From Candidatus Woesearchaeota archaeon (GTDB lineage Archaea; Nanobdellota; Nanobdellia; Woesearchaeales; GW2011-AR4): DNA of 33,437 nt. Numbering within the stretch: position 1 is the stretch's first letter; the number at the start of each line of letters is the position of its first letter. Positions 2,234 through 21,509 of this stretch are shown here, in pieces. The stretch is taken from positions 1 to 33,437 of the forward strand of contig JAGVYA010000046.1 in the NCBI GenBank assembly GCA_018303505.1. The letters are read 5' to 3'. The position numbers were made by a program, and so were the translations under genes. Under the pieces are notes generated by a model. That model had not been told where the DNA came from and made no database searches. It saw only the letters and a list, made by a program, of their open reading frames with translations.

Positions 2234-4894
2234 ATGAAGATTGCAATTGTTGGTACAGGCTATGTAGGCTTAACTACAGGAACTTGCCTTGCAGAACTAG
2301 GTAATAATCTTATTTGCGTTGACATAGATGAAAGCAAGATAAACAAACTTAATAATAATATCATACCAATTTACGAGCCTGATTTGGAAGATTTAGTAAT
2401 AAAAAACAGGAAAAATGGCAGACTGAAATTTACAACAGACTTAAAGCAAGCAATAAAAGAATCAGAGATAATCTTCATTTGCGTTGGAACACCTCCAAAA
2501 AAGAGTGGGGATGCGGATTTAAGCTATGTTGAGGATGTAGCAAGGACAATTGCAGAAGTAATGGATTCTTATAAAGTAATTGTTGAGAAAAGCACTGTCC
2601 CAGTTGAAACAGGAGAAAAAGTTGCAAAATCAATAAGAGCGTATAATCTCCACAAGGTTGACTTTGATGTTGTAAGCAATCCGGAATTCCTAAGGGAGGG
2701 AAGTGCTGTAAATGATTTCATGCATCCTGACAGGATAGTGATTGGATGCGAAAGTGAAAAGGCAAAAGCAATAATGGAAAAATTATACATTCCATTAAAA
2801 GCGCCAATAATTTTCACCGATATAAAAAGCGCTGAAATAATTAAGCACACATCCAACTCATTTCTTGCAACAAAGATTTCTTTCATAAACACCATAGCAA
2901 ATATCTGCGAGCTTGCAGGAGCTGATGTTGAGAAAGTTGCAGAAGGTATGGGTTATGATAAAAGAATTGGAAGAGCTTTTTTAAATGCAGGAATCGGGTA
3001 TGGGGGCTTTTGCCTTTCAGGAGAAGAATTTGTTTTCTTAGGCAACCCAAACCCAAAACTCACAAATTTTAGAGAGGCATTTGAATCAAATACCAATTCA
3101 AAAAGTATAATTGCATTGGCTTTTGATGGGAAAAAAGCAAAGCTTTCTGATGTAGGGATTATTTCTAAAAGACAGTACAATGGAGAAATTATAAAAATCA
3201 ATACCTCCATGGGAAGAAGTATAGAAGTTACAGCAGATCATCCTATGCTGGTGGAAAAAAATGGCAAGTTAGAAGTTAAAGAAGCAAAAGACATGACTTC
3301 GGATGATAAAATACCAATAATTATGTATTTGCCAGAGAGAGTTTTAAAGACAATTGACATACTTAAATTATTGCCAGAAGAGCTAAAGAAAAAACTTAAA
3401 CTCAGACCAAAAAACAAAAAGTTATTAGATTATAAAGCTGAATTATGGTCACTTATTAAATGTGAATCATGGCGAAAATTTGATTTTTTCAGAAAGAATT
3501 ACATAACTTATCAATATTACGCAGAGATTAAATCTATATTAAAGAATTTTAATATGTTACTATTCACAAGCAAAGGAAACACTACTTATTTTCCTGCAAA
3601 AATAGAGCTAAATGAAGCTTTTTGGAGATTAGTTGGCTACTATTTGTCTGAAGGGCACATCCATCATGAAAAAAGTAAAAGAGGCATAAGGTCTAGAATA
3701 GTATTCACTTTTAATGAGCACGAAACAGAATATATAAGTGATATTTGTAACATTTTGAATAAGTTAAGTATAAAATATGAAAAGGGCAATTATTCACATA
3801 CAACAAGAATAGTAGTATCTTCTAGAATTTTTGCTTATTTACTTGAGAAAGTGCTAGGATGTGGTACAAACTCCTATAATGCAAAAATACCTAATATAGC
3901 ATTTTTGCAAGATGAAAAATCAAAAAAAGCACTGCTTTGCGGTTTATTTAGGGGAGATGGTTATGCCTATTTTCATAAAAATGCACAAGCTGTAACTATT
4001 GAATATGGTACATGCAGCAGAATTCTTGCAGAAGGAATTATATTACTCCTTCAATCATTGGGGATAGTACCAAGCTATAAGAAACAATTCATGAAAAAAT
4101 CTAAAGTAGATGCGCATATCATAAGGGTGCATGGAAAGAATCAATTGAAAAAACTTACATTTTTTGACAAAAAGACTAATATAAAAATAAAAGCATGCTT
4201 ACAGAAATGCAAAACGATTACCCCAATGGGTTACACAATACAAAACAATATTGGTTTTTTAAAGGTAAATAAAATAGAAAAGTTTGTTGACGATAAATAT
4301 GTCTATTCAATGGAACTTAATGACGAGCCTCATATGTTTGTGACATCAGGAGGGGTAATAGTTCATAATTGTTTTCCAAAAGACGCAGAAGCCTTCATAA
4401 AAATAGCTGAAAAGCTGGGCTATGATTTCAGGCTGCTCAAAGCCACCCAAGAAATAAATAATTTACAGAAGAAAAATTTTGTAAAAAAGATAGAAAAAGC
4501 ATTGTGGATAGTAAAGGGAAAAACAATAGGAATTTTGGGCTTAGCTTTCAAGCCAAACACAGACGACATGAGATTTGCGCCGTCAATCGACATAATAAAT
4601 GAACTGCAAAAAGAAGGAGCAAAAATAAAAGCATATGATCCAAAAGCAATGGAAAAAGCAAAAGGCATACTCAAAAATGTTGAATATTGCAATAACCCAT
4701 ATGATGTTGCCAAAGATGCAGATGCTTTAGTAATAATCACAGAATGGAATGAGTTCAAAGAATTGGACTTGAAAAAGCTAAAATCCCTAATGAAACACCC
4801 TTTGATTATTGACGGAAGAAACATCTATCAGCCTGAAGATGTTAAAAAAGAAGGCTTTACATACATTAGTATAGGAAGAAAGGACGTGATTTAG
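2234..4894 (+). CDS. ugd: UDP-glucose 6-dehydrogenase carrying an intein
   Basis: An 886-residue precursor. After splicing, exteins 1-259 and 713-886 form a 433-residue enzyme, a normal length. It oxidises UDP-glucose to UDP-glucuronate with two NAD+. Visible marks are the N-terminal Rossmann loop GTGYVGLTTG, GTPPKKSGDADLSYV, FLREGSAVNDFMHPDR, the hinge helix FLATKISFINTIANICE, active-site GYGGF/CFPKD interrupted by the intein, and C-terminal LAFKPNTDDMRFAPS. The GGxCFPKD pattern favours the UDP-glucose type over the UDP-GlcNAc type, whose motif is GGHCIxVDP. Its stop codon directly precedes the GTG of the next gene, and the three-gene set makes UDP-xylose from glucose-1-phosphate. Substrate is inferred from motifs and neighbours; a related UDP-sugar cannot be excluded. 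Confidence 0.9.
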   Translation: MKIAIVGTGYVGLTTGTCLAELGNNLICVDIDESKINKLNNNIIPIYEPDLEDLVIKNRKNGRLKFTTDLKQAIKESEIIFICVGTPPKKSGDADLSYVEDVARTIAEVMDSYKVIVEKSTVPVETGEKVAKSIRAYNLHKVDFDVVSNPEFLREGSAVNDFMHPDRIVIGCESEKAKAIMEKLYIPLKAPIIFTDIKSAEIIKHTSNSFLATKISFINTIANICELAGADVEKVAEGMGYDKRIGRAFLNAGIGYGGFCLSGEEFVFLGNPNPKLTNFREAFESNTNSKSIIALAFDGKKAKLSDVGIISKRQYNGEIIKINTSMGRSIEVTADHPMLVEKNGKLEVKEAKDMTSDDKIPIIMYLPERVLKTIDILKLLPEELKKKLKLRPKNKKLLDYKAELWSLIKCESWRKFDFFRKNYITYQYYAEIKSILKNFNMLLFTSKGNTTYFPAKIELNEAFWRLVGYYLSEGHIHHEKSKRGIRSRIVFTFNEHETEYISDICNILNKLSIKYEKGNYSHTTRIVVSSRIFAYLLEKVLGCGTNSYNAKIPNIAFLQDEKSKKALLCGLFRGDGYAYFHKNAQAVTIEYGTCSRILAEGIILLLQSLGIVPSYKKQFMKKSKVDAHIIRVHGKNQLKKLTFFDKKTNIKIKACLQKCKTITPMGYTIQNNIGFLKVNKIEKFVDDKYVYSMELNDEPHMFVTSGGVIVHNCFPKDAEAFIKIAEKLGYDFRLLKATQEINNLQKKNFVKKIEKALWIVKGKTIGILGLAFKPNTDDMRFAPSIDIINELQKEGAKIKAYDPKAMEKAKGILKNVEYCNNPYDVAKDADALVIITEWNEFKELDLKKLKSLMKHPLIIDGRNIYQPEDVKKEGFTYISIGRKDVI
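3011..4369 (+). other. Intein with LAGLIDADG endonuclease domain, in frame inside ugd
   Basis: 453 residues (260-712 of the precursor). It starts at Cys (CLSGEEFVFL), has the block B pattern VTADHPM, two endonuclease motifs (LVGYYLSEGH and LLCGLFRGDG), and ends with VHN before the extein Cys of CFPKD. All splicing residues are present: Cys1, block B Thr/His, penultimate His, terminal Asn, and Cys+1. The +1 Cys is the catalytic Cys of the dehydrogenase, so enzyme activity requires exact splicing. From memory, Methanocaldococcus jannaschii has an intein in a UDP-sugar dehydrogenase; whether the site is the same needs an alignment. Both endonuclease motifs keep an acidic residue, so it may still home. 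Confidence 0.92.
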
Positions 4895-14102: not shown

Positions 14103-14939
14103 TTATTTTCTTTCAAACAAAGCAAGATAATAATGGTAAACAGTTTTGCCTTTATAATGCACTATGAAAGATGTTATTTGAATGATAACAGATATACTTC
14201 CATAAACCACTAGGTACCAGTAAAGCATAAAGTACATTGATAAAAAGTTATAATAAGAATTAATAATCTCAAAAATTATAATAATATTTATATGAACTAT
14301 ATTAAATGGGTGACCCCACACTTCTTTTATCAGATTATAAGTTTTATATAGTTTTTTACCTATTTCAGTCTCGCCACCTTCCACATTAGCCTTTCCTATA
14401 AGAGAAATATATTTTTTTACTTTTTCTTTTCTTTTATGAATGTCATCCCTTAGCGCATTTTTTAAAGCAGCCAGTTGTATTATTGATAATACTACAGATT
14501 TTGAGAAAAATGAAGCCAAAAATCCAAATATCAAAATGGATTTATAACCAGTTTGCAAAAATATACCATATGATAATGAAAAAAATATCAAAGTTGCTGT
14601 TATTTCATGATAAAGGAATTCTAAGAAAGACCCCGTCATACTACCTTCTTTTCTATACCTTGCTATCTCTCCGTTCACATTATCTAACACAATTGTGAGA
14701 TGAATTAGTAAAATACCCACTAGCATCAATTTTAATGTTCCAAATGCGAGAAGAATAGACCCAAAAATAGCTAAAAGCATCATTAGAATTGTAACTTGAT
14801 CTGCATGTATCGGAGTATAAAGTAATAATTTTGTCACATAGATTGAAAATTTCATTGTAACTAATTCCATATACAAAGGTCTTTTGCTTTTGGAATTAGC
14901 ATAGCAAATCTTTCTTAGTTCTTTTATTGACTCTACCAT
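14103..14939 (-). CDS. CDP-alcohol phosphotransferase family membrane protein with altered active site
   Basis: 278 residues with about six hydrophobic segments. The family signature is D-x2-D-G-x2-A-R-x8-G-x3-D-x3-D. Here the spacing is exact but residues differ: D86, N89 (usually D), G90, A93, R94, G103, E107 (usually D), H111 (usually D). Normal members bind two metal ions with the four Asp and move a phospho-alcohol from a CDP-alcohol to an acceptor such as a lipid. With one Asp left, chemistry or metal use must differ, or activity is lost. It is the last gene of the eight-gene operon, 31 bases after the APS-kinase-like gene. Gene composition is AT-rich. Confidence 0.75.
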   Translation of the reverse strand: MVESIKELRKICYANSKSKRPLYMELVTMKFSIYVTKLLLYTPIHADQVTILMMLLAIFGSILLAFGTLKLMLVGILLIHLTIVLDNVNGEIARYRKEGSMTGSFLEFLYHEITATLIFFSLSYGIFLQTGYKSILIFGFLASFFSKSVVLSIIQLAALKNALRDDIHKRKEKVKKYISLIGKANVEGGETEIGKKLYKTYNLIKEVWGHPFNIVHINIIIIFEIINSYYNFLSMYFMLYWYLVVYGSISVIIQITSFIVHYKGKTVYHYYLALFERK

Positions 14940-14970
14940 TTTATATTTGTTTTTTATAATGGTTTTATAT

Positions 14971-15525
14971 TTAAATGTATCTTACCTTTATTACTCCACT
15001 TTTTTTAAGTTTAGCTAACAACTTATTCACAGATTCTTCAACAGATTCCTTATCTGTATTTAGGATGATATCTGGATTTTTTGGTTCTTCGTAACTCGAT
15101 GAAACATACATAAAATTCTCAAATCCCTTTTCCTTTTCTTTAGCTTTCTTGTAATGTCCTTTTATATCCCTTTTTTCACATACTTCTAAAGGGCATTTTA
15201 CGTATACCAAGAACATCTTTTTTAGGGTTTTTTTCGCATATTCTCTAGACCTTTCTGTTGGAGAAGCAACTGATGCTATGGTAAGAACGCCATTCTCAGA
15301 AATTATCTTGCAGATGTTAGCTACCCTTTTCATGTGCTCGTTTCTTTCTTCTAAAGAGTAACCTAAATCTGAGGAAATAGTCTTTCTTAACTTATCCCCA
15401 TCAAGCAGAGCAACAGGCATATCTCTATTTCTTAATATCTTAACTAGTTTTGCAGCTATAGTAGATTTTCCTGCACCGTGCAGTCCAGTAAACCATATTG
15501 TCCATGCCTTTTTCATCATTTTCAA
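14971..15525 (-). CDS. Adenylylsulfate kinase-like protein (CysC family)
   Basis: 184 residues. The Walker A loop GLHGAGKST is at 14-22. DGDKLRKTISSDLGYS, SVASPTERSREYAK (in place of FISPYRxDRxxVR), VKCPLEVCEKRDIKGHYKKA and the closing YEEPKNPDIILNTDKESVEES follow the APS kinase family in order. Such kinases phosphorylate the 3'-hydroxyl of adenylylsulfate to give PAPS; relatives phosphorylate other small molecules. No ATP sulfurylase or sulfotransferase is visible here. The neighbour PHP protein belongs to a family that includes 3',5'-bisphosphonucleotide phosphatases, which would fit PAP removal. ATGs also occur at residues 3 and 4. Family sure, substrate uncertain. Confidence 0.82.
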   Translation of the reverse strand: MKMMKKAWTIWFTGLHGAGKSTIAAKLVKILRNRDMPVALLDGDKLRKTISSDLGYSLEERNEHMKRVANICKIISENGVLTIASVASPTERSREYAKKTLKKMFLVYVKCPLEVCEKRDIKGHYKKAKEKEKGFENFMYVSSSYEEPKNPDIILNTDKESVEESVNKLLAKLKKSGVIKVRYI

Positions 15526-15575
15526 AAACCATTTTTATTATTAAAACTTTCTAAATAAACAATAACAATATTTTA

Positions 15576-16445
15576 CTAGGAAATAGGTATTCTGTTCCTA
15601 AGATTTTCCAAAACTTTGTCAGGTATATTTACCTCGCCCAAGGTAAACCTATAGTTTCCATGATAATCACTACCACCGCTTTCAAGGATTTTTTTCGATT
15701 TTGCAATTTTTTTATAAAAATTTATTAATTTTTTATTTTCATTCTTATCAATATTCAACTCAGGACATATAATGTGATACGGGTAATAAGTTTCTATTCC
15801 GTCTCCTCCATTATCAATAAAATAGTTAATAATCTTAACTGAGGCTTTTCTCGGATAAATTCCTGGATGAGCTAGTATTGATACCCCGTCAGCATGTCTA
15901 ATTATTTTTATAGCATCCTTAATTGAAACCCTGTCATGCGTCTCTACGAAGGCTTTTTTACCTACCCCTATTAATTTGTCAAAAACATCTTTAACTGAGC
16001 TAAATTCGTTAGGATACCTTTTTAGCAAATATTTTGCAATATGAGGTCTCCCAAAAGTTCCTTTAACAGTTTTTTTAACATCCTCGTACTCTATTTCATA
16101 ATCAAAACCTTTTAATTTCTCAATTATTAGCTTTTTATTTTCCTCCCTCTTATTATTTATATGCTCTATCAAATTAATCAATTTTTTATTATTAAAATCA
16201 ATAAAAAGCCCAAGAATATCTATCTTATCATAATTAAAAAGTGGGTCATCACAACTTAATTCCACTCCAGATATTACCTCTATATTTTTATCCTTAGAAT
16301 ATTCAATTGCCCTTTTTATTGAAGCTAAAGAGTCATGATCAGTTATTGCAATAGCGCTTAATTTTTTTTTAATAGCAAGATCAACTAATTCCTCTGGAGT
16401 CAATTCCCCGTCAGAAGCAATGGTATGGTTTTGCAAGTCTATCAT
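15576..16445 (-). CDS. PHP-family phosphoesterase
   Basis: 289 residues from ATG 16445. The ORF opens 18 codons earlier, but MIDLQNHTIASDG at 16445 is the normal PHP start and follows the upstream TAA by one base. Motifs: ITDHDS (motif II), SGVELSC, GRPHIA, LAHPG (motif III) and SGGSDYHG (motif IV). This resembles the TrpH/RNase AM branch, which removes the 3'-phosphate from 3',5'-bisphosphonucleotides. The first metal ligand of the usual HxH is Gln here (codon CAA, residue 5), while H7 is kept. Activity may be altered or lost. It lies between HAD and APS-kinase-like genes in the operon. Confidence 0.8.
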   Translation of the reverse strand: MIDLQNHTIASDGELTPEELVDLAIKKKLSAIAITDHDSLASIKRAIEYSKDKNIEVISGVELSCDDPLFNYDKIDILGLFIDFNNKKLINLIEHINNKREENKKLIIEKLKGFDYEIEYEDVKKTVKGTFGRPHIAKYLLKRYPNEFSSVKDVFDKLIGVGKKAFVETHDRVSIKDAIKIIRHADGVSILAHPGIYPRKASVKIINYFIDNGGDGIETYYPYHIICPELNIDKNENKKLINFYKKIAKSKKILESGGSDYHGNYRFTLGEVNIPDKVLENLRNRIPIS

Positions 16446-16446
16446 T

Positions 16447-17262
16447 TTAGATATATGGAATAATATTTTGCAAATCTGCCTCTTCAGATTTTTTATCAAT
16501 AAAAATAATCTTTCCTTTTATGCTCTCATTTTCTAGTTTCCTTTTCAGGAAATTTTCCAACTCCTTATTATAATTAAATGCAATTCCCAATCCTCCTGCT
16601 TTGGCAATGTTAAATATACCCCAAGAGTCCCCCATTGTGTCTCCAATATGTGCAACTTGATTTATAGAAATATTTTTGAAATGCTCTCTAATATATCTAA
16701 GAACTAAACTGGCTTTGACTTCCTCATTTCTTATTAAAAGATCAACTTTGCCAGTAGCTTTTATTTTATCATAATCTTTATTTTTTGAGCTATTTTTTCC
16801 AGAAAAGTAAGCTTTAATTTTTTTTCTTAATTCTTTTTCACTTATTTTTTTTTCTGTCTCACCATCGTAGCCAAATAGCAAACTATTTCCAATAAACCCA
16901 TGTATCTTTTCAGCACCAAACTTTTCTTGAATACAATAAAATGTTACGGAGTAACCTGTTGAATTTATAATAAATGGAATTTTCTTTTTAGAAAGGAATT
17001 CTAATAACTCTTTTAATCCTTTTAGGTACTCCATATTTTTTTGAGCATATTCTATTGCCTGCCTTAAAGTAATGCCTTTACTCAATGGGCCAGCAATCTT
17101 AAATGCTTCCTTAATAGTTACCATTCCCTTCGTTTGTTTTTTGAAAATATAATCTGCCTTTTTAAAATCCTCTTCGCTTTTATAAACTCTAATCATATCG
17201 CTCATAGTATGCTGATGCACAAGTGTTCCATTCAAATCAGCAGAAATTAATTTTATAGTCAT
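16447..17262 (-). CDS. HAD-superfamily hydrolase-like protein
   Basis: 271 residues. Motif I is SADLNGTLV: the nucleophile Asp9 is kept, but the second Asp, the acid/base in phosphatases, is Asn11. Motif II is NSTGYS near 96, and motif IV is HIGDTMGDSWG near 211-220, so metal-binding Asp are present. A helical cap lies between motifs I and II. Loss of the second Asp usually lowers phosphatase turnover, as in phosphonatase-type or phosphomutase-type variants or dead members. The gene starts one base after the HIT-like stop. From here to 14103 the operon is AT-richer than its first four genes. Confidence 0.75.
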   Translation of the reverse strand: MTIKLISADLNGTLVHQHTMSDMIRVYKSEEDFKKADYIFKKQTKGMVTIKEAFKIAGPLSKGITLRQAIEYAQKNMEYLKGLKELLEFLSKKKIPFIINSTGYSVTFYCIQEKFGAEKIHGFIGNSLLFGYDGETEKKISEKELRKKIKAYFSGKNSSKNKDYDKIKATGKVDLLIRNEEVKASLVLRYIREHFKNISINQVAHIGDTMGDSWGIFNIAKAGGLGIAFNYNKELENFLKRKLENESIKGKIIFIDKKSEEADLQNIIPYI

Positions 17263-17263
17263 C

Positions 17264-17896
17264 TTAATCTTTTAATAACATTATTAGCTCTCTTGCCAAT
17301 TTATTAAACCTCTTTGTATCAATCATTACTTTTCTGACATGGATCATTTTTACGAATTCCTTGCCCGTACCTTTCTCTTTGAATACCTCTTTTCTTTCAA
17401 AGGAGCTGTCAACTGTATATGGTTGCCCAATATTACCTCTAAAGGGAAAGATTTTAATGTGCAGATGCTCTTTTTTTTCTTTCCATGTCGTGCACTTTCC
17501 ATATGCTGCCAAAGGCATAGAAAGTCTTTTTTCTTCAGTGCTTGCCATTAATCCTTCTTCTTGCATCAAGACAGATGATATGGCTTTGCATATTTTCGAA
17601 AAAGCTATCCCAAAATTTTCTGCCAGCTTGGGATAAGAATGAATTTGTGAAAAATGGGTTAAGTGGCGCAAAGGCATTAATTGGATTGTAAAGTCTGCTT
17701 TTGGATTTCCACCTGTTCTAGGTGATAAAGTTGCAAACCATCCTGTTTTTATGTCGCCTATTTTATACACTATGGCACCGTATCCTGCTTTACTCCCTAC
17801 TTTGGATTTGGCTTCTTTGCACAGGTTGCAGCTGCTCTTTGGTTCCGTATTTTTCGCACCCAACTTATCGAATTCCTTATAGTCCATTTTAATCAT
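17264..17896 (-). CDS. HIT/galactose-1-phosphate uridylyltransferase-like protein
   Basis: 210 residues. A CNLC pair near 23-26 resembles a zinc-binding CxxC. PLRHLTHFSQI and, near 143, EHLHIKIFPFRGNIGQPYTVDSSF give an HxHxK motif in place of the HxHxH or HPHxQ of HIT and GalT enzymes. The central His, the nucleotidyl-linked residue in that family, is kept. Members move or hydrolyse nucleoside monophosphates. Lying directly after two nucleotidyltransferase-like genes, it may act on the nucleotide product they make. The start overlaps the upstream stop by 8 bases; ATG 17887 (MDYKEF), which gives TAAAATG as elsewhere here, is an alternative. Function open. Confidence 0.65.
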   Translation of the reverse strand: MIKMDYKEFDKLGAKNTEPKSSCNLCKEAKSKVGSKAGYGAIVYKIGDIKTGWFATLSPRTGGNPKADFTIQLMPLRHLTHFSQIHSYPKLAENFGIAFSKICKAISSVLMQEEGLMASTEEKRLSMPLAAYGKCTTWKEKKEHLHIKIFPFRGNIGQPYTVDSSFERKEVFKEKGTGKEFVKMIHVRKVMIDTKRFNKLARELIMLLKD

Positions 17897-18977
17897 CTAA
17901 AATTTTTATGTATTCGTTGTCCCTTCTCCCATTGAGGTAAGAGTCAAAATACCCGATGACTATCCTGTGATATATTTTCCCGGACTTTGGGGTGACTTCC
18001 TCCACAATGCCGCTTGCCTTAATCTTTTCTCCTGGATAAGCAAGCATGCAATAGTCTCTTGAATAAAAAACAATTTTGCTTATTTGCAATCCTTTGCATG
18101 CTGTATCACCATCAATAAATTTTGAGCCTGAGATTTTGTAGCAGCCAGGCCTTACAATGGAATCTTTATTGTCATCAACAACTGCTTTAAATCTTGCCAC
18201 TCCCAGCCTTTTGTATTTTTCCTCGCCCCACTTGAACCATGCTTCATCCTCATTTTCGACTGCAAATATGATGAACAAGGTTTTCCTGAAAAAGCCTTCA
18301 GACTTCTTTCTGTGCATGTTTCTTATGTATATCTCCTTTTTGTGTATTACATACCTGTTTCTTTTCTTGTAGAATTCCCCCCATTCCTCATAGCTTTTCC
18401 ATCTCAAGTCCTTATGTCCATTTTTATCCAGAAATTCCATCAAGTCCCAAAATTTCCTTTTTCCGTAAACAACAATGTTGATGTCCGACATATTTGGTGA
18501 GTAATGCCCCATCAAAGTCGAGTATGTCACTCCAAAATCCTTAAGCTTGAGGTTGCTTTTAAGAAGAAATAAAATCAGCTCAACCACGGTCCTTAGGTGC
18601 TCATCCAGGTCTTTGCCCGGCATGCTCATGAGATCTGACAATCCTTCCCTTGGAGAATAAACCCTCTCAATGTTTTTTCTGGGCACTGCAAAAAATAAAG
18701 GGCTTTTTTCATGCAAGCGGCTTTTGAAGATATATTCAGAGTATGATTTGGAAAATGCATCAATATAACTCTTAAGCTTGTCTTTGTCTATCCAAAGGTC
18801 CAGCCTGTTCATCTTTCTCCCGGAAATAAACCTATATGGCAAAGAATCGCTCGATATCTTGTTGGTTGGTATGTATTTTGGCTTGACTAGTATTTTTCCA
18901 TCAGGATGCTGATTACCGTAAACTTGGCAATGCAAGCCGTCAATTGTCGTGATTATCGAAGACTCATGGAAGTGCAT
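17889..18977 (-). CDS. COG1665-like nucleotidyltransferase paralogue with altered catalytic motif
   Basis: 362 residues, a paralogue of the next protein (18979-20049) along its whole length. The polymerase-beta-type site reads YSTLMGHYSPNMSDINIVVYG: the second Asp of the metal-binding DxD is Asn. The shared C-terminal half includes RWKSxxxW, YIRNMHRKK, FAVENEDEAWFKW and SIVRPGCYKI, which looks like a beta-rich domain. With D-to-N at the site it may be a non-catalytic partner of its neighbour. The start is 1 base after the stop of that gene, so they are made together and could form a heterodimer. I match the pair to archaeal COG1665 from memory. Confidence 0.65.
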   Translation of the reverse strand: MHFHESSIITTIDGLHCQVYGNQHPDGKILVKPKYIPTNKISSDSLPYRFISGRKMNRLDLWIDKDKLKSYIDAFSKSYSEYIFKSRLHEKSPLFFAVPRKNIERVYSPREGLSDLMSMPGKDLDEHLRTVVELILFLLKSNLKLKDFGVTYSTLMGHYSPNMSDINIVVYGKRKFWDLMEFLDKNGHKDLRWKSYEEWGEFYKKRNRYVIHKKEIYIRNMHRKKSEGFFRKTLFIIFAVENEDEAWFKWGEEKYKRLGVARFKAVVDDNKDSIVRPGCYKISGSKFIDGDTACKGLQISKIVFYSRDYCMLAYPGEKIKASGIVEEVTPKSGKIYHRIVIGYFDSYLNGRRDNEYIKILDD

Positions 18978-18978
18978 T

Positions 18979-20049
18979 TTAGCTTATAAGGGCTTTTAGG
19001 TATTCCTTTTCACCCCTGTCAGTTGTGTACGTATCGAAATAACCCATAACCACCTGATAAAACTCCACATCTTCAGACTTAAATTTTTCAAGAAGTCCGC
19101 AGGCTTCTATGTGCTCCCCTTCTTTAGCCTGCAGATTAAATGGCCTTGCCCACGTAATAATGCGCCTTATTGGCACGTTCTTGTAGCCTTCAAGAACAGC
19201 AGAATCTTCAAGCTCATAATATCCTGGCCTTACAATGGAATAATATGCATCTTTTACTTTAGCCTTTATATTTACCGTTCCAAGCGGCTCATGCTCAGCC
19301 TCCCAATCATACCATGATTCATTCTCATTTTCAATGCAGAACAGTGAAAAAACATTCCCGTCAATAAAGCCATCGTCTTTTTTCCTGACCATGTTTGCAA
19401 CATATTCTTCTTCGCTATAGGCTTTTGACACAACACGGTCTCTGTAATATTTGGCCCAATCCTGCCCGGATTTCCACTTTAAGCTTGGATTTTCGGATTT
19501 TTCCAGATGCCTTATTGCTTTCCAGCCATTGCCGATTCCAAAAATAAGTATATCAATGTCAGATTTTCCAGGTGTATAATTTCCCAGCAAAGTAGAATGG
19601 CTTATCCCCAGGTTTTCCATTGGAATTCCAGCTTTACCAAGTATCTCAATCATCTTTCTTGTGGCTTTCAAGTAGCTGTCAAGGTCCTCTATTGGCACCT
19701 TCAGCAGTTCCTGCAGGCCATTCTTTGCGTCATAGAATTTTTTCACTTTTTTTTCCGGCAGCCCCAGGAACCAGTTCCTGTGCTTTTCGCATTTGTATAT
19801 ATATTCTGGGAATTTCTCCCTGATTGCATCCAAATTCCTTTTAACTATCTCCTTGTTGTTGAATAAATTAAATCTGAATACGGACTTGCTGAACAAAAAT
19901 CTTTTCTTTAACCCAGTGAGATTGATCAAGTCACTCGGCACATATTTTGGCTTTGCTATGATAAATCCTTTAGGATGGGTGTTGCTGTAGATTTTGAATT
20001 GCACATCATCTATGCTGTCTACCAATGCCGCCTCGTGGAAATATGCCAT
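18979..20049 (-). CDS. COG1665-like predicted nucleotidyltransferase
   Basis: 356 residues. HSTLLGNYTPGKSDIDILIFG near 168-188 fits the minimal nucleotidyltransferase motif, with DID as the metal ligands. Residues 1-60 (FHEAALVDSIDDVQFKIYSNTHPKG) and the C-terminal half are shared with the paralogue at 17889. Conserved landmarks are LKWKSGQDWAKYYRD, YVANMVRKKDDGF, FCIENENESWYDW and SIVRPGYYEL. The substrate is unknown; members could load a nucleotide on a small molecule, protein or RNA. It follows the winged-helix/pyruvate-kinase-like gene with no gap (stop 20050, start 20049). The paralogue has lost one catalytic Asp, so this one is presumably the active subunit. Confidence 0.68.
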   Translation of the reverse strand: MAYFHEAALVDSIDDVQFKIYSNTHPKGFIIAKPKYVPSDLINLTGLKKRFLFSKSVFRFNLFNNKEIVKRNLDAIREKFPEYIYKCEKHRNWFLGLPEKKVKKFYDAKNGLQELLKVPIEDLDSYLKATRKMIEILGKAGIPMENLGISHSTLLGNYTPGKSDIDILIFGIGNGWKAIRHLEKSENPSLKWKSGQDWAKYYRDRVVSKAYSEEEYVANMVRKKDDGFIDGNVFSLFCIENENESWYDWEAEHEPLGTVNIKAKVKDAYYSIVRPGYYELEDSAVLEGYKNVPIRRIITWARPFNLQAKEGEHIEACGLLEKFKSEDVEFYQVVMGYFDTYTTDRGEKEYLKALIS

Positions 20050-21417
20050 TTAGTGTGCCTCCTTCATTTTGTTCAAATATTCTAAAAACTCGCTTACATT
20101 GTGGATTTCAAGCAGATTTGTCCTTTTGGTTTTGCTGTGAAATATGGATGCAATTATTGCTATCTGGTCTCTTTTCCCGATAAATCCCTTTTTCAGCGCT
20201 TTCGATATGACTTCCTTCTTGTCCTTGTTTGATATGTCCTCTGAATCAATCTCAGCATGCAAAGGTTCTATTCCCCATAACAGATTGAGCTGCCTCAATA
20301 TTTTTTTTCTTGATGTGGCTGCTATGGTCCTGCATTTCAGCCTTCTGCTCGAAATCATTCTTGCAGAATACCCACCTGATGTTATTATGAGCAATGCGTC
20401 TATGTGAAATGTTTTTTCAAGCTCTGACACTGTTTTGCCTATGAAATGTGTCAAGTCATATGAGTTGTTATAATCAATTCCTGTCCAGCCCATCTCCGCG
20501 CTTTTGATAATTTTGGACAACGTTTCCACTGCTTTTGCCGGATTATTTTGAATAGCAGCGCCTGAAAGCATCAAGGCAGAAGCCCCTTCCAGAACAGCAT
20601 TGGAGATGTCATAGATTTCTGCCTGCAAAAGCCTGCCTTCTGCCATGGAGTCAAGCACGCTGCCCGCTATTATTGCAGGCTTGCCATGCTTGTTGCACTC
20701 ATCAATGATTTCTTTCTGCAATTTAGGCAGCATTTCAAGATTGGTTGTCAGCTTGCTCCTGTCAATTATTATTCCATACGCCTCTTCCACTATCTCTTTG
20801 TAATTTCTTAAGGAATCCTTGTTGATAGTTGCTATTACCTTGATTTTTTCCCCTATGATTTGTTTTATATCACTATATCCTAGGCTCTTGTTGACTTCCA
20901 CCACGTCATAGGCATTTGCTGCAGCGATTGCTACAAAATCCACATCATTTTTTAGGGCCAACTTAATCCATTGCTTGTCCTTCAAATCAACATTAAGCAA
21001 TATTGGTATCTCATCTGATGCCTGCCTTACGCTTTGAACCAATTCCAGTGCAGTTTTATGATTCAGGGATGAGGCATCAATGCTTGCAACATTCATTCCA
21101 TTTTCTATCAATTTCTTAATCAGAGTTTTGCATGTGGGAGTTATGCTGCATACAATCTTAGTTTTTTTCCTGCTTTTTGTGTTCTCATCTTCCTCTATTT
21201 TTTCATAGAATTCTTTTGAACTCTCAGATAAGTTTATCTTATGCAGCAAAGCATTATTTTTCCTGCCAACAGTAATGTAGCCAAGATTCTCAAGCTCTTT
21301 TAGTATCTTGAATGCGCTTCCAACGCTTATTCCCACAATTCTGGAAATCTGGTTAATATTGTATTCATTTTCATGGTTCTTGTACAGGAATTCAAAGACT
21401 CTGTTTTTGTTGTTCAT
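20050..21417 (-). CDS. Winged-helix regulator fused to a catalytically dead, B-domain-less pyruvate kinase core
   Basis: 455 residues. Residues 1-62 form a winged helix (NRVFEFLYKNHENEYNINQI, SRIVGISVGSAFKILKEL, LGYITVGRKN). Residues 85-310 follow pyruvate kinase domain A: KTKIVCSITPTC, NGMNVASIDASSLNH, VDFVAIAAANAYDVVEV, LQKEIIDECNKHGKPAII, SNAVLEGASALMLSG. Residues 330-455 match the allosteric C domain (IITSGGYSARMISSRR, ATSRKKILRQLNLLWGIEPL). The lid (B domain) is absent. Active-site residues are replaced: Arg and Asn of ARLNFSHG are Ser and Asp, the KIE lysine is Thr (ATIN), and Asp of RGDLG is Lys (RSKL). Most likely a transcription factor sensing PEP, a sugar phosphate or a nucleotide. 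It heads the eight-gene operon, with repeated operator-like sites in its promoter. Confidence 0.85.
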   Translation of the reverse strand: MNNKNRVFEFLYKNHENEYNINQISRIVGISVGSAFKILKELENLGYITVGRKNNALLHKINLSESSKEFYEKIEEDENTKSRKKTKIVCSITPTCKTLIKKLIENGMNVASIDASSLNHKTALELVQSVRQASDEIPILLNVDLKDKQWIKLALKNDVDFVAIAAANAYDVVEVNKSLGYSDIKQIIGEKIKVIATINKDSLRNYKEIVEEAYGIIIDRSKLTTNLEMLPKLQKEIIDECNKHGKPAIIAGSVLDSMAEGRLLQAEIYDISNAVLEGASALMLSGAAIQNNPAKAVETLSKIIKSAEMGWTGIDYNNSYDLTHFIGKTVSELEKTFHIDALLIITSGGYSARMISSRRLKCRTIAATSRKKILRQLNLLWGIEPLHAEIDSEDISNKDKKEVISKALKKGFIGKRDQIAIIASIFHSKTKRTNLLEIHNVSEFLEYLNKMKEAH

Positions 21418-21421
21418 CTTT

Positions 21422-21457
21422 CTAAAAGTGAATAATATAATACTAAAAGTGAATAAT
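21422..21457 (-). promoter_or_regulatory. Tandem operator-like direct repeats
   Basis: CTAAAAGTGAATAAT occurs at 21422-21436 and again at 21443-21457, 21 bases apart, which is two DNA turns. They sit between the TATA box and the ATG at 21417, covering the expected transcription start. They are natural binding sites for the winged-helix protein encoded just downstream, giving negative autoregulation of the operon. Identity of the binder is inference. Confidence 0.7.
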
Positions 21458-21458
21458 A

Positions 21459-21470
21459 CTTATATATAAA
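21459..21470 (-). promoter_or_regulatory. TATA box of the eight-gene operon
   Basis: Minus-strand CTTTATATATAA, about 45-50 bases before the ATG at 21417. The predicted start (about 21438) lies within the repeated operator sites. The 92-base space to the upstream glycosyltransferase stop holds only this control region. Confidence 0.55.
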
Positions 21471-21509
21471 GCTTTCTATTTTAGCTTATCATCATTCAAT
21501 TTAGTAGAA

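Follow-up and report, generated by a model that had tools for sequence, protein, structure and literature searches.

The question raised by this locus is what a pyruvate kinase (PK) core fused to a winged helix-turn-helix (wHTH) domain does at the head of an operon. The fusion gene lies at 20050-21417 on the minus strand of the window, by which we mean the whole 33,437-nucleotide stretch of DNA analysed; it starts with ATG and encodes 455 amino acids, with the wHTH at residues 1-62, a linker at 63-83, the A domain at 84-312 and the C domain at about 318-447. In Pfam, HTH_24 scored 26.3 bits (curated cut-off 21.9), the PK barrel PF00224 scored 106.9 and PK_C (PF02887) 69.3; PADLOC returned nothing beyond weak HTH matches. 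The wHTH contains an invariant recognition segment, ISVGS. Since the PF00224 model aligned to the protein only at model positions 2-61 and 176-327, the B domain, which forms the lid over the active site (PF00224 62-175), is gone. It is likewise missing from the fusions of genomes G002, G005 and G010 and is present in those of G016, G026, G073, G095 and G237.

An AlphaFold model of the window fusion, built from eight orthologues (pLDDT 83.8), was searched against the PDB with Foldseek, and all 50 of the 50 listed matches were pyruvate kinases (E 6.5e-26, TM 0.71), which rules out another TIM-barrel family for the core. The sequence-only reading had described an N-terminal winged helix followed by a PK core of A and C domains without the B domain, and on this Pfam, AlphaFold and Foldseek agree: the A-domain TIM barrel and the C domain of pyruvate kinase are both found. 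With pyruvate kinases (PF00224 + PF02887; E. coli PykF, human PKM2) the window fusion thus shares the A and C domains, the fold and the phosphate loop of the effector pocket; it differs from them by the extra wHTH, the missing B domain and the loss of E222, D246, T278 and N34, plus R32 and K220 (catalytic residues are numbered as in E. coli PykF).

When the N-terminal 143 residues of the window fusion were used as query against 353 genomes of the order Woesearchaeales, the fusion was found in nine, and a phylum sample of 351 genomes yielded none outside the order. The genomes compared are metagenome-assembled and 62-100% complete. Four fusions are B-less (window, G002, G005, G010), all from one genus, and five are full-length, with the B domain kept. 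An assembly artefact is ruled out, the same B-less form being present in four species and five more fusions having the B domain. A scan of contigs with the single fusion protein as query gave no match; with the fusion alignment it recovered only two fusions, together with canonical PKs and some phosphofructokinases, and in nine of its bacterial matches, inspected by hand, the fused HTH was absent. A B-less PK barrel without a wHTH, in which KIET and ARGDLG are kept, was seen in locus L032 (G093:C44:60701-61432) and apparently lost its B domain independently.

In a tree of the nine fusions, 30 canonical PKs of the order and E. coli PykF, all nine fusions formed a single clade (support 100/100), within which the four B-less fusions formed a nested clade (100/99) sister to G016 and G026. 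The fusion thus predates the loss of the B domain, which happened a single time; the PK that was fused was still complete. As far as gene sequences record it, this history establishes one origin of the winged helix-PK fusion, in Woesearchaeales, heading an operon of ATP sulfurylase (Sat) and APS kinase; subsequently Sat disappeared from one sub-lineage together with the B domain and the residues for Mg binding and proton transfer, while the wHTH and C domain stayed constrained there.

Alignment of the regions upstream of the fusion genes revealed an archaeal BRE/TATA-like promoter (ATAGAAAGCTTTATATATA, 21461-21479, minus strand) that is conserved in six relatives. Six genomes (window, G002, G005, G010, G016 and G026) have a direct repeat of TTATTCACTTT between TATA box and start codon, its period being exactly 21 bp. 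In the window its two copies are the candidate operator half-sites: half-site 1 (TTATTCACTTTT, 21445-21456, minus strand) is 21 bp upstream of half-site 2 (TTATTCACTTTT, 21424-21435, minus strand), which adjoins the start codon. An inverted half-site (TGAATGAT, 21491-21498, minus strand, in the window; TGAATGAT or GTGAATAA generally) is located 43-44 bp upstream of half-site 1, above the TATA box, in all six. The cognate of G073 is AAAGCATTCAT, present twice with a period of 20, and in G095 and G237 only related half-sites are seen, not the 21-bp repeat. Counted over the nine 120-bp upstream regions, half-sites TYATTCA occur 23 times, against a mean of 1.26 and a maximum of 4 in 200 shuffles. 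Kinship of the genomes inflates the conservation of the operator, part of which could be inherited; outside the promoter the flanking sequence is not conserved among them.

Thirty-five genomes were searched for the pattern ATTCAYTTT-N(10-13)-ATTCAYTTT. Each of the six family genomes with the fusion has its N12 form once, immediately 5′ of the fusion gene, and beyond these there were just two matches, in G012 (N12) and G016 (N10). A wider regulon was considered and rejected: the second match in G016, which has spacer 10 and a radical-SAM gene close by, looks fortuitous. Members of the genus without the fusion did not contain the repeat, nor was a half-site found upstream of NT1 (a nucleotidyltransferase-like gene, see below) in G028 and G029, which have NT1-NT2-HIT-PHP genes without the fusion. 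The repeat, found at all family fusion genes and not upstream of NT1 in G028 and G029, therefore follows the fusion gene. With essentially one locus per genome, it is best read as the site of a dedicated autoregulator. Family members have half-sites with the core ATTCAC and a recognition segment ISVGSAFK or ISVGSSFK; in G073 and G095 the core is ATTCAT, with ISVGSAHK and ISVGSTHQ; from these few data points it is possible that recognition helix and half-site co-vary.

We therefore consider it likely that the window fusion is a dedicated transcriptional regulator of its own operon, made from a pyruvate kinase. The promoter-proximal repeats could, however, be an element for another factor: they would then serve another regulator or act as a 5′-UTR element, with the wHTH-PK acting elsewhere or by protein contacts. 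That the repeats lie in the likely transcript leader, adjoining the start codon, and that most genomes of the genus encode generic wHTH proteins would fit such a role. It is nevertheless unlikely, because the repeat follows the fusion gene rather than the genus, being absent from the fusion-free members and from G028 and G029, and because a direct repeat spaced by two helix turns fits a DNA-bound oligomer.

The active site separates the two forms of the fusion. R32, N34, D66, K220, E222, G245, D246 and T278 are kept in all five full-length fusions. E222 (deleted), D246 (replaced by K, R or S), G245, N34 and T278 are lost in all four B-less ones, so that both Mg ligands (E222 and D246) are gone throughout the B-less clade. 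The changes R32 to S, K220 to T and D246 to K that the sequence-only reading had listed for the window are all present, and D66 is lost too; the Lys and Arg losses are nevertheless private to the window and do not define the clade, since G005 and G010 keep R and K (and with them D66) and G002 has K and R.

In G016, G026 and G073 the full-length fusion is the sole PK gene found, and in G237 it is accompanied by one further weak PK fragment. Because no other PK was found in the first three and enolase is present in all nine fusion genomes, the full-length fusions, judged by their residues, may serve as the PK of the cell. A canonical PK was not found in the genomes of the window, G005 and G010 either (78-91% complete).

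The B-less cores, dead by their residues, are still under purifying selection, strongest in the C domain. Whole-gene dN/dS was 0.198 for G005-G010, 0.161 for window-G005 and 0.112 for window-G002 (dS saturated), and in the window comparisons the C domain had 0.08-0.10 versus 0.20-0.21 for the A domain. Among the B-less fusions, identity is 75% in the C domain, 67% in the wHTH and 57% in the A domain; for the active-looking pair G016-G026 the values are 76% for the A domain and 70% for the C domain. These figures suggest that the barrel was relaxed after catalysis was lost and that the DNA-binding and C domains were not. In pyruvate kinases, allosteric effectors are bound through their phosphate by a loop in the effector pocket. 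This phosphate loop reads TSGGYSAR in all four B-less fusions, is near-identical in the five full-length ones and reads TQGGKSAR in PykF; being common to active PKs, it may be conserved for structural reasons.

A core that still evolves under constraint might instead have been repurposed to another reaction (e.g., phosphate, sulfate or nucleotidyl transfer), with the wHTH merely feeding back. Constraint persists in the A domain (dN/dS about 0.2), and G005 and G010 retain R32, D66 and K220, a phosphate-binding set. We regard this as quite improbable, for none of the four B-less fusions has E222, D246 or T278, the window also lacks R32, K220 and D66, and change is faster in the A domain than in the C domain, contrary to what is expected of an enzyme. 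That the full-length proteins are ordinary PKs with an incidental N-terminal extension (they keep the catalytic residues, are the only clear PK in G016, G026, G073 and G237, and all nine genomes have enolase) and the B-less ones functionless, decaying remnants is very improbable, given a wHTH above the curated cut-off with an invariant ISVGS segment, dN/dS values of 0.11-0.20, which exclude decay, and a conserved operator. The earlier proposal of a dead PK core turned regulator is well supported by the clade-wide loss of catalytic residues, purifying selection, one origin and the operator-like repeat.

The operon that the fusion heads had been read as a tight run of eight genes, which holds with gaps of -8 to +50 nt once the start of the PHP gene is moved to an internal start codon (methionine) near 16448, probably the true one. 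All genes are on the minus strand. NT1 (18979-20049) is nucleotidyltransferase-like with an OB-fold domain and the SDID motif kept; NT2 (17889-18977) is its paralogue (35% identity) with SDIN; the nucleotidyltransferase motif STLLGNYTPGKSDIDI is visible in the NT protein. Then follow a small HIT-like protein of a putative family with CxxC and an EHLHIK motif (17264-17896), a SerB-like HAD-superfamily protein (weak; 16447-17262), a PHP phosphoesterase (15576-16499; closest to the RNase RNM and 3′,5′-nucleoside bisphosphate phosphatase models, below the equivalog cut-offs), an APS kinase (14971-15525; TIGR00455, 180 bits, curated cut-off 138.7) and a CDP-alcohol phosphotransferase-like membrane protein resembling archaetidylinositol-phosphate synthase (weak; 14103-14939). 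Of the labels given to these genes earlier, APS kinase and PHP were borne out (by TIGR00455 and Pfam, respectively), HAD and CDP-alcohol transferase scored below cut-offs, and COG1665 and HIT had no profile support: NT1 and NT2 matched nothing in Pfam, NCBIfam or PDB sequence profiles, and the HIT-like protein, whose EHLHIK lacks the third His of HxHxH, had no HIT profile or PDB match. A structure model of NT1 (pLDDT 92.6) retrieved no PDB entry at E<0.001, the best, weak fold matches being OB-fold and CCA-enzyme/ANT-like fragments.

What the operon is for is clearer in the relatives. In all five full-length loci Sat is directly 3′ of the fusion (PF01747, E 1e-75 to 1e-91, in four; BLAST to Sat and PF01747 in G237), and APS kinase is no more than one or two genes away; three of the loci (G016, G095, G237) also have a PHP phosphoesterase, and four a CDP-alcohol phosphotransferase. 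From this gene content the full-length operons are assigned to PAPS-forming sulfate activation, inside a glycan gene cluster whose neighbours include GT4, nucleotide-sugar dehydratase, polysaccharide flippase and UDP/GDP-sugar dehydrogenase. The sequence-only reading of a nucleotide/phosphate-handling pathway was accordingly too vague; the ancestral operon is one of sulfate activation, with Sat, APS kinase and usually a PAP-phosphatase-like PHP. In these components it resembles known PAPS-forming operons, in which Sat and APS kinase are likewise adjacent, but it is led by the wHTH-PK. In the eight fusion genomes searched for sulfotransferases (PF00685) there was one weak match only, in G073. 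In G073 an NT5C-type 5′-nucleotidase lies between Sat and APS kinase (L038:6972-7520), other loci having a PHP phosphatase nearby, a placement consistent with disposal of PAP or AMP.

In the window lineage, unlike the known PAPS operons, Sat is absent from the genome (PF01747 was found nowhere in the window, G002, G005 and G010 genomes) and NT1-NT2-HIT-like occupies its slot. The B-less loci have the order fusion, NT1(-NT2), HIT-like or ProRS-like, PHP, so that nucleotidyltransferase-like genes stand where Sat stood, and among them only the window and G002 have APS kinase. Across the 353 genomes of the order, 21 have NT genes and 18 have Sat, with no overlap; chance overlap would be about one, so this mutual exclusion alone is not significant. 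APS kinase is missing from 13 of the 21 NT genomes and lies less than 5 kb from the NT pair in seven of the eight having both. We treat the replacement of Sat by the NT pair as a hypothesis because of the small chance overlap and the 13 NT genomes without APS kinase. NT genes occur mostly in APS-kinase-free genomes, so the pathway can be assigned with less confidence for the window operon than for the relatives that have Sat.

Order-wide, NT genes are nearly always in tandem, NT1-NT2-(HIT or ProRS-like)-PHP, usually after or fused to a PF01663 phosphodiesterase. With this module the window operon shares NT1, NT2, HIT-like and PHP in the same order; the module is led by the nucleotide pyrophosphatase/phosphodiesterase (NPP, PF01663), not by a wHTH-PK, and is mostly without APS kinase. 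It is widespread in Woesearchaeales (L077-L093; e.g., L089:7754-12767, L082:6479-11545). Fusions of NPP-NT1, NT2-HIT and PHP-APSK were seen, and a prolyl-tRNA-synthetase-like protein fills the HIT-like slot between NT and PHP at L033:2410-3789, L091:10443-11753, L092:6222-7721 and L093:10098-11441.

For the window fusion as regulator of its own operon we propose the following mechanism. The protein would oligomerise via its PK core, as a PK-type oligomer, and its winged helices would bind half-sites two helix turns apart on the same face of the DNA. The bound fusion would repress its own operon; we infer repression rather than activation because the half-sites lie just downstream of the TATA box. 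A phosphorylated metabolite in the effector pocket of the C domain (loop TSGGYSAR) would alter the geometry of the oligomer and free the DNA. The C domain probably senses a phosphorylated ligand, the best candidates being phosphorylated nucleotides of the pathway (PAP, PAPS, APS or AMP) and, as for true PKs, sugar bisphosphates. More tentatively, the full-length wHTH-PKs could be bifunctional trigger enzymes, i.e., active PKs (in some genomes the sole PK) through which sulfate activation is controlled by PEP/ADP flux, and the B-less ones regulators only, in which the operator outlasted the catalytic machinery and the sulfurylase. If so, the living relatives preserve successive steps by which a functional glycolytic enzyme became a transcription factor.

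Prokaryotic regulators derived from enzymes are a known kind: CggR/SorC (sugar-phosphate isomerase fold), ROK repressors (sugar kinases), PurR of B. subtilis (PRTase) and MocR (aminotransferases), with BirA as an active bifunctional case. They likewise combine an HTH with a metabolic-enzyme fold, dead or live, as ligand sensor and control an adjacent pathway; to our knowledge none of them has a pyruvate kinase core. No description of a PK-derived transcription regulator was found in the open-access literature searched, and to that extent the fusion is, as the first reading had it, undescribed. Ultrasmall archaea would thereby possess a dedicated metabolic regulator, one that links glycolysis to sulfate activation and probably to surface-glycan or lipid synthesis. 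Since active-looking and dead forms survive together with the operator, the route from enzyme to regulator is directly testable, and the 21-bp operator makes the regulator claim cheap to test.

Elsewhere in the window, a UDP-glucose/GDP-mannose dehydrogenase gene (2234-4894, plus strand) is split by an intein with a LAGLIDADG endonuclease domain; its relatives in G028, G029 and G026, of about 430 amino acids, seem to be without the intein, and a free LAGLIDADG protein is encoded at 293-964 on the minus strand.
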